Part shown: positions 38,806 through 45,542 of the stretch, piece by piece
Layout of the letters: each line of letters opens with the position of its first letter
How positions within the stretch are numbered: the stretch's first letter is position 1
From: Daphnia pulex
Lineage: Eukaryota > Arthropoda > Branchiopoda > Diplostraca > Daphniidae
DNA: 64,000 nt
Assembly: GCF_021134715.1 (NCBI RefSeq)
Contig: NC_060018.1
Location: 8,573,501 to 8,637,500, forward strand
Direction of reading: 5' to 3'
Translations under genes and position numbers: made by a program
The notes under the pieces: generated by a model
Told to the model about the DNA's origin: nothing
Seen by the model: the letters and a program-made list of their open reading frames with translations, nothing else
Databases searched by the model: none

Positions 38806-38813
38806 ATTATAAC
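38806..38813. other. left 8-bp target-site duplication ATTATAAC
   Basis: ATTATAAC immediately precedes the CAGTG terminus of the large element. The identical octamer follows the other terminus at 45535-45542. An 8-bp duplication is the hAT-superfamily signature. Confidence 0.9.
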
Positions 38814-39545
38814 CAGTGTTTGCTGAATCACGATTTTTTTGATTTATGAATCAAAATCATAAATCATTTTTTAGAAATTTTAGATGAATCAAAAATTAAA
38901 TCAATAATCAAATAAATTTTTGATTTAATTTATAAATTAGGGATCCGGATACAAGTAATTATTTTCACTAGTAAATATGGTATCAAGCTCTTTCAAAATT
39001 TTGTTTTATTGAAATTAAGGACACAAGTATTTTTGTTCTTAAGTAATTATGGACTGTTGTATTTAAAATTTTTAATAATTCGGGCTTTAAGTAATTCATG
39101 CAACGTGTATTTAGTCAAATACTCGCTAGTAATTATGGTCACCAGTTATTAAAATTATGTTCACAAATAATAGGTTCTATTAGTACAATTGTTCGTAAGT
39201 CACTAGCAATGACTTAAGTAATTATATTCTTAAGTAATTGTTCTCTTAAGAAATTATTTTCTTAAGTAATTATTCTCACAAGTAACTATTTTCTTAAGTA
39301 ATTATTATCTTATGTATTTACACGGTGTAAACACTTTTATTATTTTGTATTTAGAGAATTAAAGTGAAACGTCATTTATTGATTGCGTTATTGCGTAGGT
39401 TCAGGTTGCGTACAAACTTTTACGCGTTTGCAGGTTTAAGAACGCGCCTGGAAATTACATCAACAGTTTCGAGTTGTCTGCTTGTAACTTGTCAGTTTGT
39501 TTTTTTCCAAAAGTCAGACAAGAGTTAATTGCTGGTTAATTGAGT
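38814..39545 (+). repeat. left long inverted arm of the hAT-like element
   Basis: It starts CAGTGTTTGCTGAATCA, passes through an AT-rich palindromic stretch (GATTTAAATCA-like), then at least eight AGTAATTA motifs (about 38955-39310), and ends with a block containing GGTTTAAGAACGCGCCTGGA and AGTTAATTGCTGGT. The same blocks occur in reverse order and orientation at 44590-45534. Confidence 0.85.
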
Positions 39546-39679
39546 CTCAAAAGTGAAAATAGGCGTTGTTTGTGAAAAATATTTTGTCTTGGGTAACATA
39601 TTCTCTTTCTTTATAAGTAGACGTAAGATAACATTTATGTTGATAACAAAATGTTTGTTTATTCTGTCTATTTGTTAAG

Positions 39680-40229
39680 AATCAAATTGTTGGTAGACCC
39701 AAATTGTTACACCAGTTAAAGGAAACAGGAGTTTCATCAGAAGAGATTCAGCATCATCAGTACTACAACCAGGTGGTTTTGGATGTCAAACAAATTTTAA
39801 AATGCTTCCCTCCAGGTAGCTATAATATTTCTTTTATGTATATTTTCTATTCTTAAAATGTTGTTATCCGCCTAGGTATTAATGAAAATATTCAAGCAGA
39901 CCTCCAAGTAAAAGTCACAGAGCTGATAATAAGAGTTCTGATAGCAAATGAAGGTCTCCATTACTATCAGGTTATAGCAAAATTAAATTACGAAGATGAT
40001 CCTCATATAATTATTATGCTTCCATGCACAGGGTTTTCACGATATTGCCATCACACTGTTGCTTGAATTAGGAGAAGAGAAAAGTTACAGTGTGTTATGC
40101 AGACTTTCCCAATCACATTTCCAACTGTTTATGGGACCAGATATGGAGCCTATCTACAATGGAAATTCTTAACTTAGTGTATGCACTAGTCAAAAATGAA
40201 AATCGTGATTTGTACAATTATTTGATGAG
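39680..40229 (+). pseudogene. TBC1D20: captured TBC1D20 (Rab GTPase-activating) gene fragment
   Basis: Three exon-like pieces with GT-AG borders: 39680-39815, 39876-39970 and 40032-40229. They read PKLLHQL...HHQYYNQVVLDVKQILKCFPPG, then INENIQADLQ...EGLHYYQ, then GFHDIAITLLLELGEE.... This matches the start of the TBC domain of TBC1D20, an ER-associated GAP for Rab1/Rab18, including the catalytic YxQ glutamine finger (YYQ). The third exon shifts frame near 40150 (MEILNLVYALVKNENRDLYNYL resumes in another frame), and nothing after it matches the family. The N-terminus and most of the domain are missing. It cannot make a working GAP and is best read as transposon cargo. Confidence 0.85.
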
Positions 40230-40948
40230 GTATTTGAAACACCTCTCCCCCCCCCCCACCCCTAAAAAAAAGAGAGAAAGCTAGATTCTCTATATTTCAA
40301 GAGAGCATTCCTATATTTCAAATTTTATGAATGTGAAGAATGTAATTAAATAAACTGGTTTTGTATTCATTATTCCATGTGTTCTACACGTTGATCAGCC
40401 ACATAGCTTTCTTGGCTGTCTATACAGTGCCACCCTATTGGACCGATTTCACAATCTGCACACACCAAATATTTATAGTTCCCAACCGTTTTAGAAATCC
40501 AACATTTTCAAATTGGAACATATCAGGTATCAGCCAAGATTTTGTGACAAAGCCAAAGTCTAGACCGATTGATCGATTCAACTCTGATGTCACGGTTGTC
40601 ACCTTAGGCGAAAATCTATTTCGTTTCTTCAATCGATATTAAATTCAGAAAAAGAACTAAGTTGGTCAATAAAAGTGTAGTAGACATTGAGTATAGACAA
40701 CAAGGGCGTTGTGCTGATTAATTCGTCATTCCCTCAAACTTTTCTTGCATGTGGCAGACGAAAATGGCACTTTTCGCGAATCGCTCAAGAAAGTGTATTT
40801 CCTTTTTGTATTTTTCGAATAACGCGAAATTGCGCTGTGCGACTAACAAGGACATGTACTTGTTTGTCCGCAGGAATTGTTCATATTGCAAAGGTGGAGC
40901 CAGTTACATTGTCAGTCCCGAACTACCGATCGACGAAGATCGATCAAT
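40230..40948. other. cargo segment without recognised content
   Basis: This lies between the TBC1D20 and DNAI2 fragments inside the hAT-like element. Short open frames (40361-40642 and 40687-41001) match nothing I recognise. It may be captured upstream DNA of the dynein gene. Confidence 0.5.
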
Positions 40949-43551
40949 ATGACGGTTCCTCCAAAGATGGATCTTACCTGTGTTGTACGTCGACATGTTA
41001 AAGTACTGAGCAGGAGAAAATATAACTTCTCCGACGCTGTTTTCAACCCGCCACAATTTGTCGACATTTTCCCGGATCCGCAATTGACATCTTTGTTTAA
41101 GGTTTAAGGAGTAAAGAAATCGGAGTCCAATGCCAAGCTTGTGATGTTTCAGCACTTAATGTAAGTCAGTATTGAATTTAAATTTGTCAATAGCATTAGC
41201 TAATACAAAACGTATTGGAAAATTTAGATCAATACGGATTGCGCTACGACCGAGGCCCACGGAGTTTTCCACAAGGAAGGTGGATGGCCTCGCGATGTCA
41301 ACCCGCAAGAAGCCGATCAAACGGCTCGCTACCGCAAAAAGATCGAGAAGGATGAAGCTTATTTATTCCCGTACTGTTCTACAACTTGGACATGTTGAAT
41401 TGATATAAATGTGAATAATGTTTATACTAATAAGTGCAAACAGATTTTGTTTACCCCCTTGTAGCAAATGGAACATTACATCAAGCAAAATAATGTATTT
41501 AACATCTATGAGGATTATTTCACTGATTCTCCCGATATGTAGGATCATCAATTAATTTAATACTTTTGTTTTTATATTTCTGGATTGCTGAATTTTTATA
41601 TTTCCAACAGGCAAACGCCAGATCCAAATCCTCTGCGAACCCTTCATCTGCTAAAGGATCCGTCACCGATAAAACGCGCAGTCACTGGTCTTAGTTGGAG
41701 TCCCGATGTGGGAACCAAATTGGCCGCTGCTTATTCAGATCCTTTTTGGAAAAATCTGTTTGACCACAAAGAAAATGATTCTTGCATCTGAAATATTGGT
41801 ATTGACATTTGCCGATATGAGAATGATATGTCTCTTTATTCAGCAGTATAACTTTGCAAGTAATAATTCCTTTCATGAATAGAAAGAGCTGTGCAACCAG
41901 AAATAATTTTACGCAGCATGAGTCAACTACGTTCCGTCTCGTTCAATCCGCGTGACCAACACATTTTAGCTGGTGGATCGATTTATGGCGCTGTGGGAAT
42001 TTGGGACGTTCGTAAGAGTCAAGGTCCAGTTGAATGCGTCCCCATTGGTGTCGGTCATTCGGAAAGTGCCACTTCGCTTATTTGGAGCAATTCAAAGGCT
42101 GGAGTCCTGAGAATTCTTCTCAGCCTCTGGCGACGGCCAAGTAAAAACACGATAACAAATCATTTTGATTATTTCATCTTGATTATATGATTAACAATAA
42201 TAGGTTCTTTGGTGGGACATGCGAAAATTAAATGCGCCAATAGACGCACTTTTACTGGAACCTAGTTCAATCCCTCGATCGGAAAGCGCTTTATCTGCTA
42301 CTTGTCTCGAGTACGATCCTTCTATGCCAAACCGTGCCAAACAAATTCCTAGTTGGCACACGTCAAGGTGCTCATTTCTCAATTCATTTCACCGAAAAAT
42401 AAAAAATGAATTGCCAATTTGCAGGTATTGTGATGAATTGCAACAGAAGAGCCCGAACAACAGCGGAGAGGATAAATGGATAATGTGCCAATACGAGGCA
42501 CACTTGGGCCCAGTTCACGGTCTACATCGACACCTACATCTGCCCAAAATCTTTTTGACCGTTTTGGATTGGACCACGAATGTTAGGACCGAGGACATTC
42601 GCGATTCGCCCATTTTAACTTTAAAGTGTGTTCGCTTATGTCTATTGACAAGCAGATTCAAATAATAACTTGTTTCATACTCTGCTGCGTTGTAGGAATC
42701 AAAATGTCCAGTTACTGGACGGAGCGTGGAGTCACACACGGTCGTCCATCATATTCACTGCTGCAACAGACGGTGCTCTTTACCTGTGGGATATTCTCGC
42801 CCAGCGGATCACTCCTACGTTATGCTCCCAGGTCATAATAGAAAAAATTTGATTAAAATGTTGACAATCATAAATTTTAAATGTATTAACCAGGTCAGCG
42901 AATCTCCGCTTTTAAGTTTGAGCACCCAGGAACACGGAAAAATCATGGCAGTTGGCAGCAAAGACGGACGGTTGTCCGTCATTCAAATAAGCGACAATTT
43001 GTCGACAGTAACCAAAAACGATAAAGTAGCGCTCACCTCGGTATGATAAGTTATAGCTGGAAGAAAATTTAAGTCTATATTAAGTCCTATAATCCAATCC
43101 ACTGTTACACACAGTTACTGGAACGAGAAATCCGAAGAGAAAAGAATTTGGAACAGCGGACTAAAGACAGCAAGAGTAAACAAGGACCCAAAACTTCCAT
43201 TTTCCACCTTGCGATTGCAACAGTGACCCAAGCGGCCAAGTTGCTACGCAAGGCTCATTGGGCGTTCAGAAACCTCCGTCTCCCATCCATCACCTCGCTA
43301 TCTAAAAAAATGTTTGATAGCTTGAAGGAGACACTCCAGGCACTTAATATTAATCAAGAGAATACAAGCGGCAAAGAAGTTAACGAAAGATCGGTTATTG
43401 AACCTTCGGCTGATATGTTGCCAGCCACTGATAAAACCGGAAGCCAAATCAACGTATCTGTCTCTCACGCTGCTCCAGTGGCGCCATTCGTTGATCAGAC
43501 TCTGCAATCTTCCGAAGAGGCTTTCTTTGAAATTGAAACCATTGATCAGGT
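40949..43551 (+). pseudogene. DNAI2: captured DNAI2 (axonemal outer-arm dynein intermediate chain 2), disrupted
   Basis: Nearly the full family length is present in order with introns kept: an N-terminal NFSD segment (about 40990-41100), HKEGGWPRDVNPQEADQTARYRKKIEKDE (about 41222-41400), QMEHYIKQNNVFNIYEDYF (41465-41540), WD-repeat blocks (PIKRAVTGLSWSPD, VSFNPRDQHILAGG, VLWWDMRKLNAPID, FLTVLDWTTNVRTED, IIFTAATDGALYLWDI) and the C-terminal LLEREIRREKNLEQR. DNAI2 is a WD-repeat subunit of ciliary outer dynein arms. Disruptions include frameshifts near 41103, 41385, 42105, 42340 and 42480, and a TGA at 41789-41791 where the family has Trp. Last exon 43118-43551. It is non-coding as it stands. 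Confidence 0.88.
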
Positions 43552-43861
43552 ATAATATTTGAGTTATTTCGTTATGATATCAGAAAATGTCATGTACAAC
43601 TTTATTTGTTTTTAAATATGATCACAGGAAATACTTTCCCGTGGAATAGAAGAAAAACAATGAGTAGACGAATAACTAGTATGTATGAATCACCAATGAT
43701 TTTATTAATCCGATCCGCAATCAATATTTCCATTATTCAAATGTTCGTTTTTTTGGGAGAAGGGGGTATAATTAAGAGAGGTGTTGAGAAAGAGTGTTAC
43801 AAGCAAGTAAATAAAAGTTGTAGGGGAATTAGAAGTAAAAAGCGGTAAAAAGTCATTGCAT

Positions 43862-44545
43862 TCACAAGTCATTTCCAGGGATCCAGCTTTCGACTAAACC
43901 TCCTTTACTATTTTGTTCCGTTTCGAGACTATAAGTCATGCAAGCGGAGCCATCCCTATAAAATTTAAGATTTAGTGGAGAATGTCATTATTTAAAACAA
44001 ATTTGTTTAAAGTAAGTACCTGTGTTCAATAGCTGCCACTATAAACCCATGGGATGATATGTCTGAGCAGAAAGTTGAGTAGGCAGTACGGCACGCAGTA
44101 AGACCATGAGAAAATACAATTACAGGAAATCTTTGTTCATTGCATAGCTCAGCATCTAACGCTATAGGAATGTATGAATTTCCTGGCTCACATACATCAC
44201 AATTAGTTGACTTTAACCTTCTGTTAAAAACAGGTACTTCATTTCTCTACACACCAAAGGCCCAGGATATCAGCTTCTTGCCAAAGAAAGGAATCATTCC
44301 TAGTACTATGGTGTAATCTTCTACGTATTTTGGGTGGAGGAGCCAGCTTGCCCAACGGGAAGAATGTTCCTTTGGAGGAAAGAGGTAAATAGATTAACCA
44401 CAAAAGTTCAGCAGCAATTTGAGAAAAGGTCGCTTACATATACATCTTTTATTTGACTAGGATAGTATACTCGAAGAAAGCAACCATCTTCCTTGCTGGG
44501 TCCACCAGTCATTAAGTTGGTGCAGCCAACAACATACTTCCCTTT
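43862..44545 (-). pseudogene. captured PAF-acetylhydrolase gene fragment (5' part)
   Basis: Three exon-like pieces on the minus strand: about 44542-44438 (YVVGCTNLMTGG...FLRVYYPSQ), about 44390-44020 (HPKYVEDYTIVLGMIPFFGKK, then FPVIVFSHGLTACRTAYST and SHGFIVAAIEHR) and 43955-43862 (DGSACMTYSLE). This matches the N-terminal half of the PLA2G7/PAFAH2 family, secreted or cytosolic lipases of oxidised and short-chain phospholipids. The fragment ends before the GxSxG nucleophile motif, and a TAG interrupts exon 2 after SWAFGV. It is opposite in strand to the other two cargo genes. Confidence 0.83.
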
Positions 44546-44589
44546 ATAATCAATAACAACAAAGTAAGTTGATTACATTTACAAAACAC

Positions 44590-45534
44590 AATTCACCAGC
44601 AATTAACTCTTCTCTGACTTTTGGAAAAAACAAACTGACAAGCAGACAACGCGAAACTGTTGATGAAATTTCCAGGTGCGTTCTTAAACCTGCAAATGCA
44701 ACAAAGTTTGTACGCAATTAATAAATGTGGTTTTTCCTTTTTGTGCAGCATCACTATAATTCTCTAAATACAAAATAATAAATATCATAATTAATTATTC
44801 ATTCTAGTACGGAATATAAACAATTAAATATGACTAACTTTTTAATTAAAATGCTTAAGAACATAATTACTTGGGACTTGAATTACTTATGGCTTTAATT
44901 ACTTGTGAATTTATTTACTTGCAAAAGGGAATTACTTGTGTTGGTTAGCTAAATTACTTGTTGCCAGTATTACTTACTACCATAATTACTTAGCTGACAG
45001 AAAATAATTACTCATGAATTTTATTATTTAATTCCGTAATTACTTAAGAGAAAAATTACTTACACCCATAATTATTGATCTTATTTACTTAATACCCCAA
45101 GTGCTTGTGAAAATAATTACTTGATGCCCGGACTCATAAATTAAAATCAAAATTAAAATCAAATTTCATATAGTTTTTTGCATTATACTTGGCAAAAAAA
45201 ATCAAATATATATGTTATGCACACCTAAAATCTTCAGCAAAAAAATACGTTTTGTTTCTCTGCTGCTTTGTTTTAGGAAAGGAACTAGAATAATCATATT
45301 ATTTTAAAAACTGATTGGAAATCGAGAAAATTTTCATGAAAATCTGTAGGTTTTCTCGTCTTTTTTCAATTTTTTTGATTTACCCGTGATTCACTGTGTT
45401 TCAAACGATTAAAATCACGAATTAAATCAAATTTCTCTGTATGATTTAATTCTTGTAATTAAATCAATTTTGATTTAATTTTTGATTTAATTTAACGAAA
45501 CGATTTAAAATCAAATTTGATTCAGCAAACACTG
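44590..45534 (-). repeat. right long inverted arm of the hAT-like element
   Basis: This is the reverse-complement counterpart of 38814-39545: a block with CCAGCAATTAACTC and CAGGTGCGTTCTTAAACC, then a dozen AATTACTT-type motifs (44870-45122), then GATTTAATT-rich palindromic DNA and the inverted tip ending at 45534. Confidence 0.85.
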
Positions 45535-45542
45535 ATTATAAC
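45535..45542. other. right 8-bp target-site duplication ATTATAAC
   Basis: It is identical to the octamer at 38806-38813 and marks the other edge of the insertion. Confidence 0.9.

Follow-up and report, generated by a model that had tools for sequence, protein, structure and literature searches.

Positions 38806–45542 of a 64,000-nucleotide stretch of the Daphnia pulex genome (contig NC_060018.1; the whole stretch is referred to as the window) hold fragments of three host genes, TBC1D20, DNAI2 and PAF-acetylhydrolase (PAF-AH), between transposon ends. This locus raises the question of which element carries the fragments. The first-pass annotation had described a single hAT-like transposon with a captured cargo. 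The region instead comprises two nested transposons, an inner gene carrier being inserted in an outer hAT-like miniature inverted-repeat transposable element (MITE). The carrier is a multicopy, multi-donor Pack-TIR-type element, that is, host DNA packed between terminal inverted repeats (TIRs), with about 4.9 kb of cargo. We assign a probability of roughly 0.93 to the reading of a non-autonomous DNA transposon with long TIRs inserted in a hAT-like MITE; this figure refers to the nested Pack-TIR structure and not to the transposase partner. Contigs are abbreviated C1, C2 and so on, with the window lying on C2, and the coordinates of all features are collected in Table 1.

The outer element (38814–45534) has CAGTG…CACTG tips, and the first-pass annotation had correctly recorded both the exact octamer ATTATAAC on either side and the perfect 17-bp inverted copies at the tips (38814–38830 and 45518–45534). 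When the flanks are rejoined minus the inner element and one ATAAATTA, they align without gaps to both of the other MITE copies fetched, with 99.4% identity over 519 columns and 98.5% over 521 columns. Each of these two copies is 517 bp long and has its own 8-bp duplication (GTTACGTT and ATATCTGA); they belong to a set of at least 20 places elsewhere in the genome that match portions of the leftmost 134 bases of the outer element. The gapless match of the joined flanks indicates that the outer element is a small hAT-like MITE, and the assignment of the carrier to hAT therefore fails. The hAT label of the outer element is one that we assume from its tips and duplication length: it resembles hAT-type MITEs in being short (517 bp in both other copies), in its CA..TG tips and in its 8-bp duplications. 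This MITE carries no host genes and served only as an insertion target.

The inner element (38940–45135, 6,196 bp) ends in GGGATCC…GGACTC and has ATAAATTA on either side. Genome searches with both arms retrieved at least six complete copies on four contigs, a count that, like all those from arm searches, is a lower bound: one on C2 (the window copy, W), two on C12 (C12a and C12b), two on C1 (C1a and C1b) and one on C5. The copies are 6,196, 6,196, 6,212, 6,951, 6,951 and 8,495 bp long, and cargo is present in all six. Exact 8-bp duplications occur at the same ends in five of them, and the sixth has a 9-bp match that is also readable as 8 bp. The six duplications are all different (0 of 30 matches between the left and right 8-mers of different copies), and no similarity between the flanks of different copies was found at an E-value of 1e-5 over the 240–780 bp compared. 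W and C12a, on different contigs, show 0 differences over 6,196 bp, and C5 and C1b show 0 differences over 6,951 bp. The carrier assembly has spread by transposition to six known sites. As in other Pack-TIRs, host DNA with a parental copy elsewhere is enclosed by both TIR ends, and multiplication by transposition has left a distinct duplication at each copy, with no common flanks. The prediction that further copies with different duplications exist was borne out, partly different cargo being found in one of them (C12b), and the insertion was rightly judged to be recent.

The tip 16-mer CAAGTAATTATTTTCA has 14 exact occurrences in 133 Mb, of which 12 are both ends of the six copies. The other two mark related ends, a left one on C7 and a right one on C8. 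With one mismatch allowed, 35 more places appear, one being a second C7 end, compared with 13 for the reversed control (up to one mismatch), and some diverged carrier ends may be among these sites. The two degenerate left ends on C7 (C7:7223948 and C7:7205718; GGGAACCAG...) match the left arm at 86% and 77%, and lie about 18 kb apart. Since their outer flanks are similar, they are probably one duplicated old end; neither a right end nor a duplication was found in the surrounding DNA examined. The genome searches revealed no complete copy free of cargo, although a diverged one could have escaped them.

The long inverted arms noted in the first-pass annotation are present, as parts of the inner element rather than of the CAGTG-tipped one. 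They measure approximately 601 bp on the left and 542 bp on the right, with highly similar inner parts (85 bp at 89% and 58 bp at 84%) and loosely similar outer parts. The AAGTAATT motif occurs seven times in the left arm and nine times in the right, always pointing inward, and is absent from the cargo. Shuffling the left arm base by base leaves 0.07 occurrences on average. Judged by their sequence, the AAGTAATT arrays resemble a putative transposase-binding array.

About 4.9 kb of the carrier matches TBC1D20, DNAI2 and PAF-AH, close to the 5 kb first proposed, with gene names that rest on PDB and Pfam matches of the donor frames. TBC1D20 and DNAI2 are adjacent at one donor locus (C2:13213667–13219300), and the cargo is collinear with it, running from the TBC1D20 piece through the spacer to the DNAI2 piece. 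Judging from this order, the three pieces came as one block with their introns. The PAF-AH piece, which alone lies on the minus strand, derives from C9:9014397–9015115 and is longer in C12b, where it begins from 9013925. Adjacency of all three genes at a tip-less parental locus had been proposed as counter-evidence to capture; it was found for TBC1D20 and DNAI2 and not for PAF-AH, and no arm matches at the C2 or C9 donor were found among the matches listed. Similarly, the idea of separate captures holds for PAF-AH and the additional C12b pieces, which came from elsewhere, and not for the TBC1D20–DNAI2 block. Three independent captures are not needed, since TBC1D20 and DNAI2 are contiguous at the donor. 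At least three consecutive PAF-AH-like stretches lie in the C9 region (C9:9008346–9015115), the last being the closest to the cargo among the matches listed. Besides the donor gene, diverged relatives of the DNAI2 block with 70–80% DNA identity lie at C2:11836110–11838573, C6:4630367 and C3:2712762.

The internal structure differs among the copies. The comparison comprised four sequences (W, C1a, C5 and C12b), W standing also for the identical C12a and C5 for the identical C1b. A 772-bp donor block is missing in all four, and an 820-bp donor block is missing only in W and C1a, and hence in C12a. C12b is without part of DNAI2 and contains other host DNA there: one piece matches two places on C12 at 87–88% identity, a second, of 452 bp, matches C1:3457854 at 98%, and a further stretch matches C9:1198187 at 78%. 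The C12-derived piece is presumably VWA/CLCA-like, a weak label for which Pfam gives only VWA at an E-value of 0.025, and one exon of the additional C12b cargo had no match in PDB. Within the left internal segment, 39564–39679 is 76–79% similar to C2:10401784 and C7:3389808.

Table 1. Features of the nested elements at 38806–45542 of the window
Feature	Position	Strand	Basis
Outer target duplication ATTATAAC, left, 8 bp	38806..38813	.	Identical to 45535–45542
Outer hAT-like MITE, left part, tip CAGTGTTTGCTGAATCA	38814..38939	+	Gapless match of the rejoined flanks to both other MITE copies fetched
Inner target duplication ATAAATTA, left, 8 bp, MITE sequence	38932..38939	.	Empty-site and copy-end comparisons
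Pack element left arm (GGGATCCGG..., 7 AAGTAATT motifs)	38940..39540	+	Start common to all six copies
Left internal segment, no donor assigned	39541..39728	+	Genome search
TBC1D20 fragment with intron	39729..40294	+	Donor C2:13218753–13219300(-); PDB match of donor frame, RabGAP-TBC by Pfam
Spacer piece, between TBC1D20 and DNAI2 pieces at donor	40302..40551	+	Donor C2:13217683–13217932(-)
DNAI2 fragment with introns	40551..43878	+	Donor C2:13213667–13216910(-); PDB match of donor frame
PAF-acetylhydrolase fragment	43879..44593	-	Donor C9:9014397–9015115; Pfam PF03403 on donor exons and PDB match
Pack element right arm (inward-read tip GAGTCCGGG..., 9 AAGTAATT motifs read inward)	44594..45135	-	
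Inner target duplication ATAAATTA, right	45136..45143	.	Empty-site and copy-end comparisons
Outer hAT-like MITE, right part	45144..45534	+	Empty-site comparison
Outer target duplication ATTATAAC, right	45535..45542	.	Identical to left octamer

Comparison of W in the C2-derived block gives 160 differences over 3,998 sites against the donor, 72 over 4,088 against C5 and 64 over 1,898 against C12b. All four copies jointly differ from the donor at 59 of the 143 variable sites at which all sequences are present, a number that includes changes on the donor's own branch. The outer capture boundaries are common to W, C1a, C5 and C12b. Together, the common boundaries and the jointly derived sites point to one founding capture, later split into three lines represented by C12b, by C5 and C1b, and by W, C12a and C1a. 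The PAF-AH piece shows only 3 differences over 715 sites between W and C5, compared with 19 between W and C12b and 18 between C5 and C12b over 714 sites.

Nine TBC1D20/DNAI2 coding stretches, picked by eye from open frames, differ between W and the donor at 69 of 2,048 sites (3.4%), compared with 91 of 1,950 (4.7%) outside them. These stretches contain 12 frame-breaking indels in W and 16 in C5, some of which may be alignment artefacts. The 12 indels in W led us to reject the TBC1D20/DNAI2 cargo as intact genes, and the earlier description of a mutated cargo holds for this block. The two PAF-AH exons tested in W are still open and are 94–96% identical to the donor pieces. By these comparisons, much of the cargo is decayed.

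The retention of introns and spacer indicates copying at the DNA level, and the intron-containing pieces with their donor loci agree with the earlier proposal of capture by a DNA transposon. The cargo would have been copied in by template switching, either during gap repair or during replication of the element, and would represent mostly decayed baggage. Copies have both lost and gained internal pieces. Transposase would bind the arms in trans through the mirrored AAGTAATT arrays. Template switching, or the fork switching proposed for multicopy animal Pack-TIRs (PMC8277862), would yield a chimeric multi-donor cargo. Read by eye, the junctions share 1 bp at the 772-bp deletion, 1 bp between DNAI2 and PAF-AH, and 4 bp at a C12b deletion; the junction of the 820-bp deletion was not cleanly resolved, and one donor side only was compared at the left arm/TBC1D20 and PAF-AH/right arm junctions and at two edges of the extra C12b cargo.

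Nine transposase-like queries gave no match in the six copies or the window, so the element appears to be non-autonomous. The related right end on C8 is 94–96% identical to the carrier arms, and exons of a multi-copy gene family lie about 2 kb from its tip. Two pieces of this family have at least 26 and at least 37 matches, and E and D residues are invariant in all six rows of an aligned exon. The best sub-cutoff profile match of C8-type pieces is to CDC45 (E 0.0008; 18.2 bits versus a cut-off of 34), in an acidic stretch. No P-type transposase match was found in Pfam for these pieces, whose tie to the carrier is putative. At the same locus (C8:5006115–5013245), the related right end is split by a 1.1-kb insert, and the adjoining transposase-like gene holds an insert with 77-bp inverted ends. 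We tentatively place the C8 gene family first among the candidate transposase sources, at somewhat less than even odds, with a MULE (Mutator-like element) transposase second. It is rather unlikely, although conceivable, that the carrier represents an undescribed DNA transposon superfamily with GGG/GAG termini, 8-bp duplications, mirrored AAGTAATT arrays, a C8/C3-type transposase outside the Pfam and NCBIfam families, and a habit of packing host DNA that would account for the cargo in all six complete copies.

Several results weigh against parts of this account. The divergence between W and C5 is 1.8% in the C2 block and 0.4% in PAF-AH, for which a simple tree is insufficient; sequence conversion or exchange among the copies may underlie this unevenness. 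The comparison of W with C12b suggests selection on the arms (13 of 1114 differences in arms versus 64 of 1898 in cargo; Fisher p = 0.00017), whereas that of W with C5 is not significant (12 of 1145 versus 72 of 4088; p = 0.11). The junction overlaps of 1, 1 and 4 bp neither prove nor exclude template switching. An autonomous element with both ends was not found, the C8 locus having a right end only. Neither Pfam nor NCBIfam gave a transposase match for the C8 gene family, and the predicted structure of a C8-type exon is unusable (mean pLDDT 38.5). The chance of the nearness of gene and arm on C8 was calculated post hoc as 0.001 with a single arm fragment considered and 0.003 with three, and these figures overstate the link, since it was inspection of the sequence next to that arm that revealed the family.

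With regard to superfamily, hAT elements have short TIRs beginning with CA(R), while MULEs have long TIRs and duplications of 8–11 bp, mostly 9. The inner element agrees with hAT in its 8-bp duplications (exact in five of six copies, one being 9 bp or ambiguous) and departs from it in its ends (GGGATCCGG / GAGTCCGG) and its arms of about 540–600 bp. Long arms are present as in MULEs, with duplications of 8 bp in five of six copies. The strongest alternative takes the carrier for a Mutator-like element, a Foldback-type animal Pack-MULE mobilized by one of the MULE transposases of this genome, a reading that we regard as possible, with a chance a little short of one in two. Such an identity would fit the long arms built from short repeats, the differing outermost motifs, the G-rich ends, the 8–9-bp duplications and the gene capture. 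The genome contains at least 55 matches to PF10551 (MULE). Ten of these lie in frames longer than 300 aa, one of them with a stop. Matches to this model were also obtained in 3 of 14 control genomes. Fly FB4 and nematode Tm1, which share this anatomy, were assigned to MULE (PMC8277862; PMC3169594), yet their duplications are mostly 9 bp. Furthermore, no PF10551 match listed adjoins an arm, the nearest being about 48 kb from the C8 arm, and the gene beside that arm does not match PF10551. Elsewhere, two transposase-like loci (C5:3363918 and C5:3379666) are identical over the 3,459 bases compared, at a distance of 15.7 kb, representing a very recent local duplication.

A function of the cargo, for instance as a novel chimeric gene or as a source of antisense or small RNA directed at the parent genes, is improbable. 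The two open PAF-AH exons, the opposite strand of PAF-AH relative to the other cargo, and the transcription of at least 30% of Pack-TIRs as chimeras in three species (Tan et al., PMC8277862) are compatible with such a role, but the nine TBC1D20/DNAI2 stretches carry 12 frame-breaking indels over 2,048 aligned sites in W, and the cargo diverges faster than the arms between W and C12b. That the CAGTG-tipped element itself carries the gene pieces is extremely unlikely and was rejected by the empty-site comparison: exact octamers and perfect tips surround the whole region, but two MITE copies match the rejoined flanks gaplessly across the inner site, and the MITE flanks of W show no similarity to the sequences that flank the other five cargo copies. 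Equally far-fetched is a segmental or assembly duplication, which would explain the two pairs of identical copies; it was rejected on the distinct duplications and unrelated flanks, the element ends being identical and the MITE that W occupies occurring without the insert elsewhere in the genome.

The nested Pack-TIR reading places the carrier beside several known systems. Plant Pack-MULEs and Pack-TYPE elements have long TIRs, genomic cargo with introns and multicopy spread, and the carrier resembles them in all three; plant Pack-MULEs belong to another kingdom by gene content, and no MULE transposase has been linked to the carrier. Animal Pack-TIRs are already published, and multicopy ones are rare: 370 were reported in 100 animal genomes, of which four (1.4%) are multicopy, none in insect reference genomes, in addition to fly Ssk-FB4 (PMC8277862). 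The multicopy examples, such as frog Pack-hAT-N8_XT and Ssk-FB4, are alike in TIR ends around host DNA, distinct duplications and DNA-level capture (Tan et al. 2021, PMC8277862). FB4, assigned to MULE, has 9–10-bp duplications and TIRs of about 700 bp, very long arms as in the carrier (PMC8277862). In contrast to the median captured size of 224 bp in animal Pack-TIRs (PMC8277862), the carrier holds about 4.9 kb from at least two donor loci, covering three genes and more in one copy, in six copies; the passages of PMC8277862 considered here, as distinct from its supplements, name no multi-donor case. Tm1 of root-knot nematodes has composite TIRs of 13–15-bp repeats, asymmetric end motifs and 8–10-bp duplications (PMC3169594). 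It resembles the carrier in its composite short-repeat arms, unlike end motifs, duplications in this range, low copy number and likely acquisition of host sequence, and differs in having predominantly 9-bp duplications and a Phantom (MULE)-like transposase (PMC3169594), whereas the duplications of the carrier are mostly 8 bp and no MULE transposase has been linked to it. A survey of arthropod MULEs gives TIRs of 13–1193 bp and, in the passages considered here, mentions capture only in general terms (PMC13359780). No report of the present element was found in the literature searched on Pack-TIRs in arthropods or insects and on Pack-MULE in Daphnia, a search whose scope lay outside subscription journals, supplements and Repbase.

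The carrier constitutes a six-copy family whose history can be read from the capture boundaries that its copies have in common, from subsequent deletions, from the additional cargo of one copy and from recent copies that are identical. This family allows one to ask, outside plants, in which order the pieces were captured, which repair route was used, and whether the arms alone are under selection.

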